Assembly: GCF_009812055.1 (NCBI RefSeq)
Contig: NZ_WQNH01000002.1
Span: 62,001 to 126,000, forward strand
Direction of reading: 5' to 3'
DNA length: 64,000 nt
Source: Chelativorans xinjiangensis
GTDB taxonomy: Bacteria > Pseudomonadota > Alphaproteobacteria > Rhizobiales > Rhizobiaceae
Shown one piece after another: positions 19,121 through 34,529 of this stretch. The first letter of the stretch is position 1. The number at the start of each line of letters is the position of its first letter. The notes under the pieces are model-generated. The model ran no database searches. It saw only the letters and a list, made by a program, of their open reading frames with translations, and was not told the DNA's origin. A program made the position numbers and the translations under genes.

Positions 19121-19410
19121 CGGTTTCGATATACCGTCCATAATTATCTGACATCGGCCGGAATTAACCGGACCTATCCGGGAATAAGCGGGAATAGCCG
19201 GGTATAGGCGGTGTGGAGCGATCCCAATTGCCTTGGAACGCAATTGACCCCACCTTCAGGGGGCGACTGAATGCAGGCCCAGGAGCCATCCGGATTCTGC
19301 TGCCAGAAGATTGCCGTTCAAAATCCCATCGACCAGGGTAGCAATACCGGTCACCATTGACCTTTCCCAATTCGCCGGCGAAGATAACTGCCGGGTTTGG
19401 GGAGGCGTGC
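19121..19410. other. Intergenic gap before cas3
   Basis: This 290-bp gap marks the left edge of the CRISPR-Cas island. It contains a short degenerate tandem run, CCGGGAATAAG, CGGGAATAG and CCGGGTATAGG (about 19180-19210), and two CAATTG sites near 19230-19250. A TTGACC at 19356-19361 is a possible -35 box, but I see no well-spaced -10. No ORF is credible here. Confidence 0.4.
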
Positions 19411-21672
19411 ATGTTTTTCGCGCACTCGACGGAGGACACATCGTGCTCCGATTGGCAGCTATTACATCGACATCTGATTGATGTTGCTGAGCTGGCTGCA
19501 CAGTTCGCTGTCGTGTTCGGAGCGGAAAGGGCAACTCGGCTTGCAGGACTCCTGCATGACCTTGGAAAATATACTCCGGCGTTCCAGGCGAGGCTGACGG
19601 GAGCGCTCGAAAAGGTCGATCACTCGACCGCCGGCGCCGCCGAAACATTCACTCTTGTAAGCGCGATTGCAGATCGCGCAATGGCGGAACTGATCGCCTA
19701 TGCGATCGCCGGACATCATGCGGGTCTGCCGGACAGGATCGGCGATGGATCGCTGGCAGAACGGCTGAAGAAGCAACTGGAGCCTCTCGATCCGTCGTGG
19801 CGCGACGAAATCGCCCCGGATGCAGTCGGCCTGATGCCGGATTTCGAATGGAGCAAGGACAAGGACAAAGCGGCGTTCCAGCTCGGCTTTCTTGGGCGGA
19901 TGATCTTTTCCTGCCTGGTCGATGCCGACTTTCGGGATACGGAAGCTTTCTACGACGGGGTCAAGGGAGAGAAGAAAGATCGCGAATGGCCGGCCCTCGG
20001 CACGATCATCGATCCCCTCATTGCCTGCTTCGAGGTTCACATAGCCGACAAGCAGTCGGGTGGCACGGCCTCCAAGGTCAACCAACTGCGCGGCGAAATC
20101 CTTGCCCATGTGCGCGCCAAGGCGAGCGAAGCTACCGGCCTCTTCACGCTCACCGTCCCGACCGGCGGCGGCAAGACGCTGGCTTCGCTCGGTTTCGCGC
20201 TCGACCACGCGAAGAAGAATGGGCTGGAGCGGATCATTTTTGCCATTCCTTTCACATCGGTGATCGATCAGACCGCGTCCGTTTTCCGGGAGGTATTGGG
20301 CGACGAATTTATCCTGGAGCATCATTCGGCGATCGATTTCAATTCGGCGGCGAAGGAGAATGAATTCCGCGAGAAATTCGAAGGAAACTCGCTCGAAGCC
20401 AAGCTCCGTCTCGCCATGGAGGACTGGGCGGCGCCGATCGTCGTCACCACCAATGTGCAGCTTTTCGAGAGCTTGTTCGCCAATCGGCCATCGCGCTGCC
20501 GCAAACTGCACAATCTGGCGCGCAGCATCATCATTCTGGACGAGGCGCAGACCATACCCTTGCCGTTGCTCCGTCCCTGTGTGGCGGCGTTGGACGAACT
20601 CGCCCGCAACTACGGCATATCGATCGTCTTGTGCACGGCCACCCAGCCGGCTCTGGCCGCACCGGAGTTCGAGGGCGGGCTCGTCCTCGGGTCAAAACAG
20701 GAACTGGCCCCTGATCCGCCAGGACTGGCCCGCGCCCTGAAGCGCGTAGAAATCGCGTCAGGCGGCGAAATGAGCGACGACGATCTGGTGGCCGCGCTCC
20801 GGGACAACGGGCAAGGGCTCGTCATCGTCAACAGCCGCAAGCATGCGCTTGCCCTGTACAAGGCCGCGAAAGCCGCGGGGCTCGATGGCGTCGTCCACCT
20901 GACGACCCGGCAATATGCGACTCATCGGCGGGAGATCCTGGCCGACGTGCGGCACAGGCTGAAGAAAAAGCTTCCCTGCCGCCTGATCGCGACATCGCTG
21001 GTCGAGGCCGGCGTCGATGTCGATTTCCCGCGTGTCTGGCGCGCGGAAGCCGGGCTCGACCAGATCGCCCAGGCGGCTGGGCGCTGCAACCGCGAAGGGG
21101 AACGGCCAGTCGGGGAAAGCATCGTCACCATTTTCAAGGCGCCGGAGAACCCGCCGCCAAGGGAGATCGGCCAGCTTGCCGCGGACTTCGTCCGCATGGC
21201 GGACAAGCATCAGGACCTGCTGTCGCCCGACGCCATGCGCGACTATTTCGGCGAGGTGTACTGGCGCAAGGGTGACAGGCTCGACGCCAAGAAGATTCTC
21301 GAGGACTTCCGGCTCAACCGCGACGAGACGAATTTTGCCTATCGCTGCGTCGCGGAGAAATTCCGCATGATCGAAAGCGGCATGGTGCCGGTGATCGTTG
21401 CGCGAGACGAGGCCGCTCGCGACGCGCTGGGCGAACTCGCGTGGGAAAAGGCCTATCCAGGCGCGGTGGCCCGCAAGCTTCAGTCCTTCATCGTGCAGGT
21501 GCCGCCGAAGGCGCGCAACCTGTTGATCGCGAACAGGCATGTGCGCTTCGAGCAGGAAAAGCGCTTCGGCGACCAGTTCGCGGTGCTGGTGACGGGAAGT
21601 TTCTACAAACCCGAAATCGGACTGATCTGGGAGGATGCGGACTATCTGGGATTGGAACAGCCGGCGATTTGA
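19411..21672 (+). CDS. cas3: Type I-C CRISPR nuclease-helicase Cas3
   Basis: Cas3 is recruited by Cascade to unwind and degrade targeted DNA. I chose the start MFFAHSTEDTSCSDWQ, which has GGGGAGG 5 nt upstream, giving 753 residues. The N-terminal HD nuclease domain has His-Asp at residues 49-50 (LLHDLGKY), His71 and His102-His103. The SF2 helicase domain has Walker A TVPTGGGKTLAS near 250, DEAQ near 377, motif III TATQPAL, motif V VEAGVDVDFP and motif VI QAAGRCNREG. All key residues are present, so the effector should be active. It is separated from cas5 by a 410-bp regulatory gap, so cas3 may be transcribed independently of the rest. Confidence 0.97.
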   Translation: MFFAHSTEDTSCSDWQLLHRHLIDVAELAAQFAVVFGAERATRLAGLLHDLGKYTPAFQARLTGALEKVDHSTAGAAETFTLVSAIADRAMAELIAYAIAGHHAGLPDRIGDGSLAERLKKQLEPLDPSWRDEIAPDAVGLMPDFEWSKDKDKAAFQLGFLGRMIFSCLVDADFRDTEAFYDGVKGEKKDREWPALGTIIDPLIACFEVHIADKQSGGTASKVNQLRGEILAHVRAKASEATGLFTLTVPTGGGKTLASLGFALDHAKKNGLERIIFAIPFTSVIDQTASVFREVLGDEFILEHHSAIDFNSAAKENEFREKFEGNSLEAKLRLAMEDWAAPIVVTTNVQLFESLFANRPSRCRKLHNLARSIIILDEAQTIPLPLLRPCVAALDELARNYGISIVLCTATQPALAAPEFEGGLVLGSKQELAPDPPGLARALKRVEIASGGEMSDDDLVAALRDNGQGLVIVNSRKHALALYKAAKAAGLDGVVHLTTRQYATHRREILADVRHRLKKKLPCRLIATSLVEAGVDVDFPRVWRAEAGLDQIAQAAGRCNREGERPVGESIVTIFKAPENPPPREIGQLAADFVRMADKHQDLLSPDAMRDYFGEVYWRKGDRLDAKKILEDFRLNRDETNFAYRCVAEKFRMIESGMVPVIVARDEAARDALGELAWEKAYPGAVARKLQSFIVQVPPKARNLLIANRHVRFEQEKRFGDQFAVLVTGSFYKPEIGLIWEDADYLGLEQPAI

Positions 21673-21680
21673 GGGCAATG

Positions 21681-21710
21681 GAGGCGGATCCAGTTAACTG
21701 AATCCGCCTC
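21681..21710. terminator. 30-bp near-perfect palindrome after cas3
   Basis: The arms GAGGCGGAT (21681-21689) and ATCCGCCTC (21702-21710) pair, and the centre CAGTTAACTG is itself self-complementary, leaving one mismatch in 30 bp. It starts 8 bp after the cas3 stop. There is no T tract on either strand, so it may be a cas3 transcript end or a protein-binding dyad. On the minus strand it directly follows the candidate crRNA-like spacer and could end that RNA. Confidence 0.5.
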
Positions 21711-21775
21711 AAGCTGCGTTTGCAGCCTCACTCGCTCGAGAAAGTTTCGATCCACGCCCCTGCGCGAGAGGCGAC
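21710..21775 (-). ncRNA. Candidate Cas-regulating crRNA-like RNA (CreR class): orphan repeat plus spacer
   Basis: Seen directly: on the minus strand 21775-21744 is a CRISPR repeat identical to the array repeat at 30 of 32 positions. The two changes are C to T at repeat position 7, which keeps the stem by a G-U pair, and T to G at position 11, in the loop. The 3' handle TGGATCGAAAC is unchanged, so Cas5 should still recognise and cut it. The 34 nt that follow (21743-21710) begin TTTCTCGAGCGAGTGA. They match TTTCTAGTGCGTGTGA upstream of cas5 at 13 of 16 positions next to a TTC PAM. Known class: CreR-type RNAs guide Cascade to cas promoters for repression. Inference: this is such a regulator. 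Alternatives are a relic of an old array or a solo repeat without function. Confidence 0.6.
21744..21775 (-). CRISPR. Orphan degenerate type I-C repeat, opposite to the array
   Basis: A single 32-nt repeat lies between cas3 and cas5, 5.9 kb from the array and in the opposite orientation. It differs from the array consensus only at positions 7 and 11. No second repeat follows the spacer. Confidence 0.9.
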
Positions 21776-21831
21776 AAGTTGAATGTCGGTGACAGTCGAA
21801 CCAGCCTATGGAGGGTCCCATTCAATTTCTA

Positions 21832-21859
21832 ATTCCATATTCAGGCGCCCAAGCGTCAA
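21832..21859 (-). promoter_or_regulatory. Possible minus-strand promoter for the orphan repeat
   Basis: On the minus strand TTGACG (complement of 21854-21859) is followed after 16 nt by TGGAAT (complement of 21832-21837), which matches the sigma-70 -10 consensus at four of six positions. A start a few bases on would give roughly 50 nt of leader before the orphan repeat. This is a weak prediction by eye. Confidence 0.3.
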
Positions 21860-21942
21860 GCGAAGAAAGTACCGGCGGCGGCGAATCATTTTGGCGTCCT
21901 TTTGGCTGCAGGCTGTGCAGGATGCAGAAAATGGAGTGAGTG

Positions 21943-21983
21943 TCTAGTGCGTGTGAACTGCGTTGCAGTTCACACGCACTAGA
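21943..21983. promoter_or_regulatory. Perfect 19-bp inverted repeat upstream of cas5, containing the candidate CreR target
   Basis: The arms 21943-21961 (TCTAGTGCGTGTGAACTGC) and 21965-21983 are perfectly complementary with the 3-nt loop GTT. The minus strand of its right half is the sequence matched by the orphan spacer: protospacer 21985 down to 21952, with PAM TTC at 21988-21986. It lies about 100 bp upstream of the cas5 start, where a bound Cascade or another repressor could block transcription. Confidence 0.6.
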
Positions 21984-21993
21984 AAGAAGTTCA

Positions 21994-22082: not shown

Positions 22083-22751
22083 TTGGCATATGGAATTCGT
22101 TTAAAGGTCTCGGGCGAATACGCCTGCTTTACGCGCCCGGAAATGAAGGTCGAGCGCGTCTCCTATGATTTGATGACGCCTTCGGCGGCGCGGGGAATAT
22201 TGGAAGCGATCCACTGGAAGCCGGCGATCCGCTGGGTGATCGACGCCATCCATGTGCTGAAGCCGATCCGCTTCCAGTCGATCCGCCGCAACGAAGTGGG
22301 ACATAAGGCGCCCGTCGGCAAGATCAAATCCGCCATGAAGGCGGGCAATGTCGAGGGCCTGCACATCCTCGTCGACGAGGATCGCCAGCAGCGCGCCGCG
22401 ACCGTCCTCGTAAATGTCGGCTATGTCATCGAGGCACATTTCGAACTGACCGACGCGGCCGGACCGGACGACAACGAGGGCAAGCATCTCGACATCTTCA
22501 ATCGCCGCGCGGCGCGCGGGCAATGTTTCCACCAGCCATGTCTCGGCACGCGCGAGTTCCCTGCCCGGTTCGAGTTGCTGCCGCCGGACGCGACGTTGCC
22601 GCCGGCAATCGACGAAAACCGCGACCTGGGCTTCATGCTCTGGGATATCGATCATCAGGTGGAGGGGCGGCCCTCGCTCTTTTTCCGCGCCGCGCTGGAA
22701 AATGGCGTCGTGAAGGTGCCCGCGCCTGATTCCGAGGAGATTAGGCGATGA
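22083..22751 (+). CDS. cas5c: Type I-C Cas5 (Cas5d), crRNA-processing endoribonuclease
   Basis: In type I-C systems, which lack Cas6, this subunit cuts the pre-crRNA at each repeat and stays in Cascade bound to the 5' handle. The 222 residues begin MAYGIRLKVSGEYACFTRPEMKVERVSYDLMTPSAARGILEAIHWKP, the diagnostic Cas5d N-terminus. The start is a TTG with GGAGGG about 5 nt upstream; no in-frame ATG fits. Its TGA overlaps the ATG of cas8c. It is the first gene of the cas5-cas8c-cas7-cas4-cas1-cas2 operon. Confidence 0.95.
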   Translation: MAYGIRLKVSGEYACFTRPEMKVERVSYDLMTPSAARGILEAIHWKPAIRWVIDAIHVLKPIRFQSIRRNEVGHKAPVGKIKSAMKAGNVEGLHILVDEDRQQRAATVLVNVGYVIEAHFELTDAAGPDDNEGKHLDIFNRRAARGQCFHQPCLGTREFPARFELLPPDATLPPAIDENRDLGFMLWDIDHQVEGRPSLFFRAALENGVVKVPAPDSEEIRR

Positions 22752-24532
22752 GCATGCTCGCTTCCCTCACCAGTGCCTACGACCGTATGGCCCAACGCGG
22801 CGAAGTGCCGCCGTTCAGATATTCGAGCGAAAGGATTGGCTTTCTAATCTCACTGAATGAAGACGGCAATCCAGCAGGAAAGCCGGTTGATCTTCGTGAA
22901 GCCAAGGGCAAAAAACTGGTTGCGCCTTTGATGGCTGTACCCACGTCTTTCAAGCGTCCAGGTATCACACCTCGATCTTTTTTCTTGTGGGACAATACAG
23001 CTTTTTCTCTCGGTATTTCCGCTTCGCAAGACAAAGACCCAGGTCCACGACTGGAGGCCTTCCGTAGTCTTCATCGCAACGCATTGTCCGATACAGACGA
23101 CCCGGGATTGCGAGCGCTGCTACGATTCATAGACCTTTGGCTTCCTGAGCGGTTCGAGACGCTTGGCTGGCCCGAGGAAATGAAAGACCAGAACGTGGTC
23201 TTCGCTCTGGAGAGCGACCGGCGTCACCACATCCGCATTCATGACCGCCCGGCCGCAAAAGCATTATGGACACGTCTTTCCGCGGAAGTCGAAGGAGCCG
23301 AGGCCGTCTGTCTGGTGACGGGCGAGAAGGCGCCGGTCGCTCGCCTCCATCCCGCCATCAAGGGGGTCTGGGGCGCACAAACTTCCGGCGCCTCGATCGT
23401 CTCTTTCAATCTCGATTCCTTCGAATCTTACGGGCATGAGCAGGGCGACAATGCTCCTATCTCCGAGCGCTCGGCCTCCGCCTACACCACCGCGCTCAAC
23501 AGGTTTCTCGAATCCGGCAGCAAAAACCGCATTCAGATCGGCGATGCATCAACCGTGTTCTGGGCGGACGGTTCGGATATCAAAGAGGCCGAAGTAGCTG
23601 AAAGCATCTTCTCCGCGATGCTCGGCGGCGAAGCCGGTACCGATGACGAAAAGATCGACGAGCAAACGGAAGCGGCAAAGGTAGGCGCTGTCCTGGATGG
23701 GCTGCGCAAGGGCAAGCCGCTTGCCGAACTCGCACCCGAACTGACCAAGGGCGTGCGCTTCTATGTGCTCGGGCTTGCCCCCAATGCCGCGCGGCTCTCG
23801 ATTCGGTTCTGGTTCGAGGACGATTTCGGCGTTGTTGCGGAGCGCTATCGGCGCTTCGTGGACGAGATGAGGATAGAGCCGCCGCCGCGCGACCCCAGCC
23901 CGCCGCTGTGGCGCTATCTGGTTGAAACCGCGGCGATGAGCAAACGCGAAAACGTGCCGCCCAATCTGGCCGGCGAGTGGCTTCGCGCGATCCTCACCGG
24001 CAACAACTATCCGCTGACGCTGCTTTCGACGGTGCTGATGCGCCTCAGGGCGGACAAGAACGTAAACGCCTTGCGTGTCGCCATGCTCAAGGCCGTGCTT
24101 ATGCGCAATTTCAACATGGAGGTACCCATGGCGTTCGATCCCGACTTTACAGGCAAGGGCTATCTGCTCGGGAGGCTTTTTGCCGTCTACGAGCAGGTCC
24201 AGTCCGCCGCGCTTGGCCGTAACGTCAATGCAACCATCAAGGATAAGTTCTACGGCTCGGCATCCGCCCAGCCGCGCAAGGTGTTTCACCTGCTGGACAG
24301 CGGCTCGGCAAACCATCTCTCCAAGATAGGCAAGCAAAGCCCGGGACACAGGGTCTCCTTGGAAAAGCGCATCGGCGCCATCATGGACATGATGACGCCC
24401 GGAGAAGATCCCTTCCCTGCTTCTCTTCCCAGTGAACAGCAGGCGTTATTCGGCCTTGGCTATCACCATCAACGCAACGAATTCTTCAAATCCAGGGAAA
24501 CGGCGCAAGCCGCCAACGAGGGGGAACATTAA
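22748..24532 (+). CDS. cas8c: Type I-C Cascade large subunit Cas8c (Csd1)
   Basis: Cas8c recognises the PAM and recruits Cas3. The 594 residues have Csd1-family features, including MLASLTSAYDRMAQRGEVPPFRYSSERIGFLI at the N-terminus and the conserved central block GVWGAQTSGASIVSFNLDSFESYGHEQGDNAPISE. Family length is usual. In type I-C, Cas11 is often translated from an internal start in the 3' part of cas8c; I did not identify that start with certainty. It overlaps cas5 by ATGA and cas7 by one base. Confidence 0.95.
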   Translation: MSMLASLTSAYDRMAQRGEVPPFRYSSERIGFLISLNEDGNPAGKPVDLREAKGKKLVAPLMAVPTSFKRPGITPRSFFLWDNTAFSLGISASQDKDPGPRLEAFRSLHRNALSDTDDPGLRALLRFIDLWLPERFETLGWPEEMKDQNVVFALESDRRHHIRIHDRPAAKALWTRLSAEVEGAEAVCLVTGEKAPVARLHPAIKGVWGAQTSGASIVSFNLDSFESYGHEQGDNAPISERSASAYTTALNRFLESGSKNRIQIGDASTVFWADGSDIKEAEVAESIFSAMLGGEAGTDDEKIDEQTEAAKVGAVLDGLRKGKPLAELAPELTKGVRFYVLGLAPNAARLSIRFWFEDDFGVVAERYRRFVDEMRIEPPPRDPSPPLWRYLVETAAMSKRENVPPNLAGEWLRAILTGNNYPLTLLSTVLMRLRADKNVNALRVAMLKAVLMRNFNMEVPMAFDPDFTGKGYLLGRLFAVYEQVQSAALGRNVNATIKDKFYGSASAQPRKVFHLLDSGSANHLSKIGKQSPGHRVSLEKRIGAIMDMMTPGEDPFPASLPSEQQALFGLGYHHQRNEFFKSRETAQAANEGEH

Positions 24533-25485
24533 TGACCATGCTCGCCAACCGCTATGATTTCGTACTTCTGTTCGACGTCTCCAACGGCAATCCCAACGGT
24601 GATCCCGATGCGGGCAACCTGCCGAGACTCGATCCCGAAACCAACCACGGCCTCGTCACCGATGTCAGCCTCAAGCGTAAAATCCGCAACTATGTGGAAA
24701 TGGCGCGGGGAGATGTTCCCGGCTCGCGCATTTACGTTCAGGAAGGTTCCATCCTCAATGAAAGGCACCGCGAAGCTTATATAGCAGTGCGCGCGGATGA
24801 CCCGAAGGCAACGACCGACAAAAAACTCAGCCCAAAATCCGACTCTGAAATGGAGCAATTGCGCGGCTGGATGTGCGCAAATTTCTTCGATGTGCGAACC
24901 TTCGGCGCGGTGATGAGCACCGGAATCAACTGTGGTCAGGTACGCGGCCCAGTGCAATTTTCCTTCGCGCATTCCGTTGAACCGATCATGCCGCTGGAAA
25001 TCTCGATAACCCGCATGGCGGCTACCAACGAGAAGGAAAAGGCGGCGCGTGAAGAAGGCAACGATGCGGACGAACGCACCGACAATCGCACTATGGGCCG
25101 CAAGCATATCGTGCCCTACGGGCTCTATCGGGCGCATGGCTTCATTTCAGCCAAACTCGCTGAGCGCACAAACTTCGCCGAGGCCGATCTCGACCTGCTG
25201 TTCGAGGCGGTGCAGAATATGTTCGAGCATGATCGCTCCGCTGCCCGGGGTGAGATGGCGACGCGGAAGCTGATCGCCTTCAAGCACGCCTCCGCGCTCG
25301 GCAACGCTCACGCCCAGGACCTGTTCGAACGGGTGAAGGTAGGTCGACGTATCAACGGGGACGTCCGCGACATCGGCGACCAAGGCATCGACAATTATCC
25401 ACCTGCTCGCAAATTCGCAGACTACGACATAACGATAGACCGCGACGACCTGCCCGACGGCGTCGAGATCATCGAGATTTGCTGA
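24532..25485 (+). CDS. cas7c: Type I-C Cascade backbone Cas7 (Csd2)
   Basis: Several copies of Cas7 coat the crRNA spacer. The 317 residues start with NRYDFVLLFDVSNGNPNGDPDAGNLPR, the RRM-type core of Csd2, and include RTFGAVMSTG and the C-terminal domain. The start overlaps the cas8c stop by one base (TAATG); a second Met at residue 3 is a possible start. Confidence 0.96.
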   Translation: MTMLANRYDFVLLFDVSNGNPNGDPDAGNLPRLDPETNHGLVTDVSLKRKIRNYVEMARGDVPGSRIYVQEGSILNERHREAYIAVRADDPKATTDKKLSPKSDSEMEQLRGWMCANFFDVRTFGAVMSTGINCGQVRGPVQFSFAHSVEPIMPLEISITRMAATNEKEKAAREEGNDADERTDNRTMGRKHIVPYGLYRAHGFISAKLAERTNFAEADLDLLFEAVQNMFEHDRSAARGEMATRKLIAFKHASALGNAHAQDLFERVKVGRRINGDVRDIGDQGIDNYPPARKFADYDITIDRDDLPDGVEIIEIC

Positions 25486-25486
25486 G

Positions 25487-26170
25487 ATGAAAACGGGCGA
25501 GGTTTCGGCCATGCCGCCCCTGCCCGACGAGCGGGATCCCGATCCCATCCCGCTCTCGGCGCTTCAACATGCCGTTTATTGCCTGCGGCAGGCCGCCCTC
25601 ATCCATCTGGAGCGCATGTGGGCGGAAAACCGCTTCACCGCCGAAGGCCATGTGATGCACATCGCGTCCGACAGGCCCGGCTCACGCAAGGCGCGCGGCG
25701 TGCGCCGGGAAACTTCGCTTTCGATCGCCTCGAAGCGCCTCGGCATCGCCGGCATCGCCGATCTCGTCGAGTTCCATCCCGGCAAGGAAGGCGAGACCCC
25801 CTACCCCATCGAATACAAACGCGGCAAACCAAAACTCCACCGCGCCGACGAGGTGCAGCTTTGCGCGCAGGGGCTCTGTCTCGAAGAGATGACCGGCCGA
25901 CCCGTGCCCGAAGGCGCGCTCTTTTACGGTGAGACGAAACGGCGCGTCGTCGTTCCCTTCGATACCGCCTTGCGGCGCCTAACGGAAGAGACGGCGGGGC
26001 AACTCCGCGAGGTCTTCACCAGCCTGCGAACCCCGCCGGCGATCTACAAAGCCAATCGCTGCCGAGCCTGTTCGCTCGCCGAACTGTGCCGGCCGAAGGC
26101 GACGGCAAGACCGGCAAGGCAGTGGCGCGACAGAATGCTGGAAGCGCTCCTCGCCGAGAACGGGTCATGA
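25487..26170 (+). CDS. cas4: CRISPR-associated Cas4 exonuclease
   Basis: Cas4 trims prespacers and selects those with the correct PAM during adaptation. The 227 residues contain the iron-sulfur ligands (one Cys in HAVYCLRQA near residue 33 and three in CRACSLAELC near 200) and the RecB-like nuclease core (GIADLVEFHPGKEG, PIEYKRGKPK, DEVQLCAQGLCLEE). It starts one base after the cas7 stop and overlaps cas1 by ATGA. Confidence 0.96.
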   Translation: MKTGEVSAMPPLPDERDPDPIPLSALQHAVYCLRQAALIHLERMWAENRFTAEGHVMHIASDRPGSRKARGVRRETSLSIASKRLGIAGIADLVEFHPGKEGETPYPIEYKRGKPKLHRADEVQLCAQGLCLEEMTGRPVPEGALFYGETKRRVVVPFDTALRRLTEETAGQLREVFTSLRTPPAIYKANRCRACSLAELCRPKATARPARQWRDRMLEALLAENGS

Positions 26171-27201
26171 AAAAGCTTCTCAACACGCTCTATGTCACCA
26201 CGGCCGGGGCGGGGTTGCGCAAGGATGGCGAAAATCTGGTCGCCGAGATCGATGGCGATGAGCGCGCCCGCGTGCCGCTCCACATGCTGGCTTCGGTCGT
26301 CGTATTCGGCGCCATATTCCTGTCCCCGGCACTGATCCAGGCCTGTGCGGCGGCGGGCATCACCGTTGTCCTGCTTGATCGCGTCGGGCGGTTTCAGGCG
26401 CGCATCGAAGGGCCGGTCACGGGCAACGTGCTTCTGCGCCGCGCGCAATATCGCGCTTCCGAGGCGCCTGAGGAGATTGTGCGCGGCTTCGTGATCGGCA
26501 AGATATCGAACCAGCGTGCCGTCCTGATGCGGTCGCTGCGCGATCACGGTGATGATCTGCAACCCGAACACCGCGACAGGGTTTCACAGGTGACGGATCG
26601 TATGGCGCGGATTTTGCGGCGCGTGAGCCTCGCCAGCGAAAATCTGGAAGAACTGCGCGGGGCGGAGGGTGAAGCCGCCAATCTCTATTTCGGCGTCTTC
26701 GACCTCTTGATCCGCTCGCCCGACGAGGAGTTCCGGTTTCGCGGGCGCTCCCGCCGCCCCTCGCTGGATCCCATCAACGCGCTTCTGTCCTTTCTCTACA
26801 CGCTTTTGACCCACGACTGCCGCAGCGCCGCCGAAAGCATCGGCCTCGACCCCGCCGTCGGCTTTCTTCATCGTGACAGGCCGGGCCGTCCCAGCCTCGC
26901 GCTCGACTTGATGGAGGAGTTGAGGCCCGTGCTGGCCGACCGGCTGGCGCTCTCCCTCGTCAATCGCAGACAGCTTCGGGCAAAGGACTTTGAAACACGC
27001 GACGGCGGGGCCGTCTTCATGACGGACGACGGTCGCAAAACCGTGCTCGCCGCCTGGCAGGAACGCAAGAAGGAAGAGCGCCGCCATCCCTTCCTCGAGG
27101 AAACCACACCGCTCGGCCTCGTTCCCTACTGCCAGGCGCAATTGCTCGCCCGCCATCTGCGCGGCGATCTCGACGCTTATCCGCCCTGGTTCTGGAAGTA
27201 G
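26167..27201 (+). CDS. cas1: CRISPR-associated integrase Cas1
   Basis: Cas1 forms the integrase with Cas2 that inserts new spacers at the leader end. The start MKKLLNTLYVTTAGAGLRKDG overlaps the cas4 stop (ATGA) and gives 344 residues; the longer in-frame extension runs inside cas4 and is not credible. Conserved metal-binding positions are in GAEGEAANLYF (Glu), LDPAVGFLHRD (His) and SLALDLMEELRP (Asp/Glu). Confidence 0.97.
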   Translation: MKKLLNTLYVTTAGAGLRKDGENLVAEIDGDERARVPLHMLASVVVFGAIFLSPALIQACAAAGITVVLLDRVGRFQARIEGPVTGNVLLRRAQYRASEAPEEIVRGFVIGKISNQRAVLMRSLRDHGDDLQPEHRDRVSQVTDRMARILRRVSLASENLEELRGAEGEAANLYFGVFDLLIRSPDEEFRFRGRSRRPSLDPINALLSFLYTLLTHDCRSAAESIGLDPAVGFLHRDRPGRPSLALDLMEELRPVLADRLALSLVNRRQLRAKDFETRDGGAVFMTDDGRKTVLAAWQERKKEERRHPFLEETTPLGLVPYCQAQLLARHLRGDLDAYPPWFWK

Positions 27202-27211
27202 GCGCTTCGCG

Positions 27212-27502
27212 ATGATGGTGCTTGTGACCTATGACGTGAACACGATCGAAGCGGGCGGCACAAGACGGCTGCGCCGTGTTGCCAAGGCTTGTCTCGATTT
27301 CGGCCAGCGCGTGCAATACTCGGTGTTCGAGATCGAGGTGGACCCGGCGCAATGGACCATGCTCAAGGCCCGGCTCGAAGCAACCATCGACCCGGAACAT
27401 GATAGCCTGCGATACTACCATCTGGGCGCCAACTGGCGTCGCCGTGTCGAGCATGTGGGGGCAAAGCCGGCTACCGATCTGGGCGGTACGCTGATCGTTT
27501 GA
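27212..27502 (+). CDS. cas2: CRISPR-associated Cas2
   Basis: The 96-residue protein has the ferredoxin-like fold signature MMVLVTYDVNT with the conserved Asp and the pattern LDFGQRVQYSVFEIEVDP. It pairs with Cas1 for spacer acquisition. It is the last cas gene; the CRISPR leader begins after its stop. Confidence 0.96.
   Translation: MMVLVTYDVNTIEAGGTRRLRRVAKACLDFGQRVQYSVFEIEVDPAQWTMLKARLEATIDPEHDSLRYYHLGANWRRRVEHVGAKPATDLGGTLIV

Positions 27503-27709: not shown

Positions 27710-34529
<6,820 letters not shown>

Follow-up and report, generated by a model that had tools for sequence, protein, structure and literature searches.

A candidate CreTA-type guard cassette between cas3 and cas5 of type I-C CRISPR loci

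The stretch analysed here, referred to as the window, comprises 64,000 nucleotides of Chelativorans xinjiangensis (contig NZ_WQNH01000002.1, positions 62,001 to 126,000) and carries a complete type I-C locus with cas3, cas5c, cas8c, cas7, cas4, cas1, cas2 and a CRISPR array. The 410 bp gap between cas3 and cas5 probably holds, on its minus strand, a CRISPR-regulated toxin-antitoxin (CreTA-type) cassette which would guard the type I-C system, a reading to which we give a probability of about 0.72. At the level of sequence, comparison with other type I-C loci brought out the guide, its protospacer adjacent motif (PAM), position-specific pairing, covariation of spacer and target, conservation of a small protein and the layout of the cassette.

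Guide and target in the window

Read along the minus strand, the gap contains a TTC-flanked target, a small open reading frame (ORF), an ectopic CRISPR repeat, a 34-nt spacer and a strong hairpin (Table 1). The ectopic repeat is identical to the array repeat at 30 of 32 positions and is the only copy on the minus strand of the window within 10 substitutions, and both its hairpin and its 3' handle are preserved, as stated in the original prediction, in which a lone type I-C repeat had been recognised at this place. The spacer starts with TTTCTCGAGCGAGTGA and the minus strand following the TTC at 21988-21986 reads TTTCTAGTGCGTGTGA; 13 of the 16 bases are identical, with mismatches at 6, 8 and 12, again as had been predicted, and the single-base gaps proposed beyond position 16 are confirmed, at positions 18 and 24 of the spacer.

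Matches were scored over 14 read positions, with bases 6 and 12 excluded, and a unit was considered to pass at 12/14 or above. The window guide scored 13/14 against its own target, with one extra mismatch at base 8. This target is the top TTC site for the spacer in the whole 64 kb, the runner-up scoring 9/14. When 5000 shuffled seeds were compared with the gap, the maximum was 11/14 (n=2), and none of the 103 array spacers scored above 10.

No second repeat was detected after the window's spacer. Among the loci compared below, a second repeat is clear only in L065 and borderline in L061; the one in L065 is 3'-degenerate and gives a two-repeat form, which is also the form of most published creA genes (PMC8501985).

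Comparison across type I-C loci

The first set consisted of the best 80 of 588 relatives from a Cas5c scan, with the cas3-cas5 distance measurable in 78, and its gaps fall mostly into two groups, either shorter than about 140 bp or about 250-480 bp long. The handle pattern G[CT]GG[AGT]T[ACT]GAAAC has 20 occurrences in the 27 kb of long gaps, counted over both strands and found in 20 of 34 loci (window included), compared to two in 342 kb of cas3, none in 516 kb of cas5-cas8-cas7 and none in the shorter gaps of this set. With a slightly wider handle pattern, 18 of 24 units matched a TTC site in their own gap at 12-14/14.

The second set, 65 non-duplicate loci with 60 measurable gaps (12 of them long), was scored in the same way, with the target-length filter relaxed from 20 nt to 16 nt. 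The handle was present in 7 of the 12 long gaps, where 6 of the 7 spacers scored 13-14/14, and in one shorter gap (L145), where the spacer had no match. For the two sets pooled, in which L067 was scored at 16 nt as it had failed in the first set solely by the 20-nt filter, 25 of 32 units matched their own gap with at least 12/14, compared to 1 of 990 swapped pairs and at most 2 in any of 10,000 permutations. The original prediction would have been undermined by relatives that keep the repeat and lose the match; the match was kept by 18/24 units in the first set and 6/8 in the second and, since seeds vary from one locus to another, guides and targets have changed in concert.

The third set, of 19 loci, added three units, of which L186 passed while L203 and L182 scored 11 and 5, respectively. 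The three sets and the window make up 158 loci, 26 of which pass, or 27 if L034 is included, whose target surfaces only once its gap is extended into cas3 as a boundary correction. The same extension gave no gain for L001, L015, L149 and L203. Duplicates were removed (11 of 76 loci already in the first set, with L180 counted apart, and 4 of 24 later loci), eight loci with unmatched cas3 were dropped (L041, L043, L136, L137, L174, L175, L179 and L204), two places were left out (G334:C28 and G614:C144), and 7 of 53 plasmid records were included.

Across the 26 passing loci, guide and target agree at 129/130 of bases 1-5, 120/130 of bases 7-11 and 91/104 of bases 13-16. At bases 6 and 12 they agree in only 4/26 and 6/26 loci, at base 17 in 16/26, and from base 18 agreement is roughly at background. 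As bases 6 and 12 lie outside the selection score, the low agreement there was not imposed by the choice of loci, and it fits the earlier proposal that the window's mismatches at these bases are at unread positions. In mutation data for haloarchaeal CreA, bases 1-5 and 7-11 were needed and 6 and 12 were free (PMC8501985), a likeness which argues for a Cascade reading over simple sequence duplication. Seeds that vary while the match is kept, together with the mismatches at unread bases 6 and 12, are therefore the signs by which the ectopic unit is a Cascade guide.

Past base 17, two five-base words (bases 19-23 and 25-29) match at 9-10/10 in 9 of the 26 loci, where the target spaces them differently. 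The window, L005, L006, L122, L128 and L186 lack the target bases that would face 18 and 24, other spacings are found in L029, L058 and L068, and the words were found in normal register in no passing locus. Swapped tails reproduced the word match in 2/600 cases (window excluded). With cuts placed freely, the best cuts include or adjoin 18 and 24 in L005, L006, L122 and L128, and were poorly resolved in L186. A single peptide family accounts for six of the nine loci, so the independent events are fewer than the loci, yet the fourth and fifth words vary between members and stay matched. No account of five-base-word pairing was found among the literature titles returned by one search.

The small ORF between target and repeat

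Relative to the direction of the repeat, the target is located upstream of it in every one of the 26 passing loci (15 of plus layout and 11 of the minus layout seen in the window), at a distance of 183-302 nt in 22 loci and 82-370 nt overall. A small ORF on the repeat's strand is located between the two in 21 of the 27 confirmed loci, judged by eye in L034. It had initially been proposed that the unit is a CreR-like autoregulator with cas5 as the regulated gene. The part which is supported is a crRNA-like unit through which Cascade would act on a PAM-flanked site with a partial match. The choice of cas5 is probably wrong: going in the direction of the guide, the target comes upstream of a small ORF, and plain autorepression of cas5 was therefore demoted. 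In the window, with the target only 97 nt upstream, an additional effect on cas5 is possible.

The ORF in the window belongs to a family of related proteins of 26-32 residues in eight loci. Differences between members at codon positions 1, 2 and 3 number 217, 99 and 378, and amino-acid changes are fewer than under random placement in 28/28 pairs, 23 of them below 5%. This pattern argues for a protein under selection, although it may be compatible with RNA toxicity as well. With the family profile, two matches at E<1e-10 were found in 397 genomes of the order, in the window's genome and in that of L128, both of them profile members; as the next match has an E of 0.004, no copy outside the cassette was seen in these genomes. 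A ninth member could be recognised in L146, where the handle is altered and the target match is weak (10/15).

Twelve other loci carry different small ORFs with a hydrophobic 17-mer of 1.7-2.8 (frames chosen by eye), and L034 has a thirteenth, similar by eye; these small proteins look membrane-like. None of eight small proteins tested against Pfam was over the cut-off. In L067, L072 and L075 the small ORF, by eye, ends with a stop codon inside the repeat's 3' handle, giving an overlap of coding sequence and ectopic repeat.

Table 1. Features of the type I-C locus and its cas3-cas5 gap (positions in the window)
Feature	Position	Strand	Remarks
Target PAM, TTC	21986..21988	-	
Target of the ectopic guide	21952..21985	-	Bases 1-5, 7, 9-11 and 13-16 matched; beyond base 16, words 19-23 and 25-29 matched, bases opposite 18 and 24 missing
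Shine-Dalgarno-like AAAAGGA	21897..21903	-	ATG 7 nt further
Small ORF, proposed toxin	21806..21889	-	27 aa, MIRRRRYFLRLTLGRLNMELEIEWDPP; conserved at protein level in eight confirmed loci
Ectopic type I-C repeat, creA-like	21744..21775	-	Hairpin kept, 3' handle intact
Spacer-like guide	21710..21743	-	34 nt
Strong hairpin	21681..21710	-	Directly after the spacer; no T run, hence not scored as a terminator
Perfect inverted repeat	21943..21983	.	19 bp, loop 3, overlaps the target; z -7.5 / -9.3 on the two strands
cas3	19357..21672	+	
cas5c	22083..22751	+	
cas8c, cas7, cas4, cas1, cas2	22748..27502	+	
CRISPR array	27710..34529	+	104 repeats
PAM TTC and site in cas5 matched by the prophage guide (L205)	22272..22308	+	Codons QSIRRNE

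Neither the inverted repeat at 21943-21983 nor the conserved small ORF had been mentioned in the original prediction. By eye, a palindrome is also present upstream of the ORF in L146, which carries the same peptide family. The hairpin at 21681-21710 may be the end of the guide RNA or of the cas3 mRNA. An Rfam search of the window at gathering score returned only tRNA and ar14.

A possible prophage guide against cas5

A second ectopic repeat (L205:3007-3037, with the unit extending to 3070) is located on the same contig, about 98 kb from the cas locus. Its surroundings are phage-like: PHROGs matches were obtained for 5 of 10 ORFs in the neighbourhood, including two HNH endonucleases, and an identical stretch is present in an IMG/VR viral contig (L215), which is perhaps from the same genome. 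No local target above 8/14 was found for the L205 spacer. Against the TTC site at 22275 in the window's cas5 it scored 13/14, or 14/15 over bases 1-17, within which the mismatches are at 2, 6 and 12. In 154 type I-C loci scanned at this one stretch of cas5, 65 match the guide at 13-15/15, and the cas5 of L028 differs from it up to base 22 only at 6, 12 and 18. Over 42,783 TTC sites of type I-C loci the best score of L205 was 15, a value reached by 0/100 shuffles and above the maximum of 14 from 895 shuffles of other units. The L205 unit is possibly a phage guide that would turn Cascade on cas5, as a single case.

Other viral solitary type I-C handles were considered as guides against cas genes and rejected: among 39 units, L207, L231 and L242 scored 13/15, which 2-7/100 shuffles also reached, and the rest scored less. 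Among the matches listed for 179 further viral units none was above 13, a score reached by 32/895 shuffles, and no clear local target was found for 15 viral units. Searching named phages with the 53-nt prophage unit returned nothing relevant, and in viral contigs the cas5 guide pattern was found in the same prophage only. Several viral contigs among L206-L245 (for example L213, L219, L234, L237 and L242) carry solitary type I-C repeats whose hairpins look good by eye; the sequence downstream of them matches neither cas genes above the level of shuffles nor their own stretch.

Taken with the cassette, the prophage unit could be part of an arms race of partial guides. On the host side a guide would keep a peptide toxin silent, its target past base 17 being read in five-base words with deletion of the unread bases, a register that would allow Cascade binding without licensing Cas3; on the other side a prophage guide would be aimed at the most conserved stretch of cas5. 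Silencing by the prophage would itself need Cascade, so that Cascade would be lowered and never emptied. In contrast to a protein anti-CRISPR, it would thereby weaken immunity and leave the toxin untriggered. We consider this scenario doubtful.

Discussion

We infer the promoter position, transcription, processing, repression and toxicity of the cassette as follows. A short transcript from near the target would express the putative 27-residue toxin (21889-21806), while a crRNA-like RNA from 21775-21710 would be cut at the repeat hairpin and then loaded into the type I-C Cascade. Guided by this RNA, Cascade would bind upstream of the ORF, at TTC site 21985, and block transcription. Since pairing there is restricted and loses register beyond base 17, the target would not support cleavage by Cas3. 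Loss or inhibition of Cascade would allow the putative toxin to be made and the cell to be harmed, and in this way the module would protect the cas locus. The module may also act as an alarm against anti-CRISPRs, a link that could apply under the toxin reading and the autorepression reading alike.

Several results weigh against such a guard cassette. Consensus scans for sigma-70 promoters and terminators found nothing in the window's gap, and promoter scores near the targets, based on sigma-70 weights, favour the ORF strand only weakly (16/26 loci; in the minus layout 7/11, mean 7.3 vs 6.8 and 6.3 for shuffles). By the standard test, a passing unit is missing from 25 of 51 loci with long gaps. 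L001 and L149 reach 10/14 and 9/14 despite the handle, L015 scores 8 without a gap and, among 107 gaps shorter than 200 bp, three carry the handle (L145, L182 and L203), none scoring at least 12. Eleven long gaps (L007, L008, L026, L033, L037, L044, L053, L107, L116, L147 and L189) have, in place of a guide unit that passes, a frame bearing PNGKIYxG, a motif which we take to resemble GIY-YIG; in several of these gaps the frame is an ORF of about 100 codons, and the one such protein tested had no match in Pfam. Some further long gaps, with neither a passing unit nor PNGKIYxG, are unexplained. Regarding the small ORFs, there is no clear intact frame in 6 of the 27 confirmed loci (L013, L036, L058, L068, L122 and L151), those of the plus layout are frames selected by eye, with no control for chance, and the window peptide is charged rather than membrane-like and gave no Pfam or PADLOC match.

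The strongest alternative is CreR-type autorepression, in which the guide would send Cascade to the cas5 promoter and limit cas expression. The position of the target, 97 nt upstream of cas5 in the window and 3-115 nt upstream in 9 of the 11 minus-layout loci, would suit this. Any plus-strand promoter at the target would be blocked too, and CreRs have been reported for types I-B, I-E and V-A (PMC13131331). However, in the 15 plus-layout loci the target is near the cas3 end, 245-549 nt upstream of cas5, with the cassette in between, and a conserved ORF sits between target and repeat. Furthermore, fewer than 200 bp separate cas3 from cas5 in 107 of the 158 loci, none of which has a passing unit, and guidance to a cas5 promoter is therefore not general. 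We therefore regard autorepression as unlikely.

Another explanation is that both effects occur at once, with a single Cascade site repressing divergent promoters for the small ORF and cas5. The geometry of the minus layout fits this, and the promoter scores there fail to separate the strands, but divergent repression of this form is not possible in the plus layout, which makes it improbable. A chance match or decayed array fragment without function, which a single repeat with two changes might suggest, is contradicted by the spacer-target covariation, the base 6/12 signature and the protein-level conservation, and is very improbable indeed.

If the CreTA-type reading is correct, type I-C systems in proteobacteria would often carry a hidden guard module between cas3 and cas5, which would help to account for gaps that are either short or around 300 bp long, and several unstudied families of small proteins would gain a likely role. 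The natural sets of matched guides and targets would show the extent and kind of pairing that allows repression without cleavage. The reading would also bear on how phages disarm guarded immune systems. Type I-C is a compact CRISPR system used for editing and CRISPR interference, and deletion of a Cascade gene during engineering may then release a toxin.

Comparison with known systems

The term "I-C" occurs 0 times in the full text of PMC10097628, PMC8501985, PMC9458426 and PMC12737573, and a type I-C CreTA is not named in the titles and abstract openings searched, a coverage that leaves out the primary CreR and CrePA papers.

With CreR, the present units share a crRNA-like RNA with a limited match near a cas gene (PMC13131331, PMC12737573). 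The target of CreR is a cas promoter; that of the window is 97 nt upstream of cas5, where no promoter was recognised. A difference is that the targets described here precede a small ORF belonging to the cassette of the guide itself. CreR generally comes without a guide-coupled toxin gene; here a conserved small ORF, which may encode a toxin, is located between target and guide. With CrePA, the common point would be a protein product controlled by Cascade-CreA (PMC12737573). CreP typically has a KilA-N domain (PMC12737573), whereas the present proteins have 26-69 residues and the window peptide has no Pfam match, KilA-N included.

The Racr-like solitary repeats of phages apply to the prophage unit only, which shares with them a solitary type I-C repeat in a phage-like region (PMC10651486), the repeat being of the host's own CRISPR subtype. 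It differs in that the sequence downstream of the repeat matches the host cas5, a type of guide that is unmentioned in the part of PMC10651486 drawn on.

With CreTA of haloarchaeal type I-B and Acinetobacter type I-F, the cassette shares an ectopic, degenerate repeat outside the array beside the cas genes, and a guide partly matching a PAM-flanked site by a neighbouring small gene (PMC8501985, PMC10097628). A small gene beside the guide and downstream of the target was found here too, and in 26 loci a PAM-flanked nearby site is matched at bases 1-5 and 7-11 with 6 and 12 free, as in type I-B (PMC8501985). The present units differ in being type I-C, with longer ORFs of 26-69 codons and matching that extends to base 16-17 and to the extra five-base words. 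The CreTs of types I-B and I-F act as RNAs (PMC8501985, PMC10097628), and the window family is conserved as protein, which may still leave room for RNA toxicity. In Acinetobacter the CreTA occupies a gap of about 400 bp between cas3 and csy1 that is missing in most relatives, and a mini-ORF with a Shine-Dalgarno sequence is located downstream of the target (PMC10097628). This mini-ORF is divergent from creA, unlike the present ORFs, which are in the guide's orientation (PMC10097628). By this comparison, the Acinetobacter type I-F CreTA appears to be the closest published parallel that we have met (PMC10097628).
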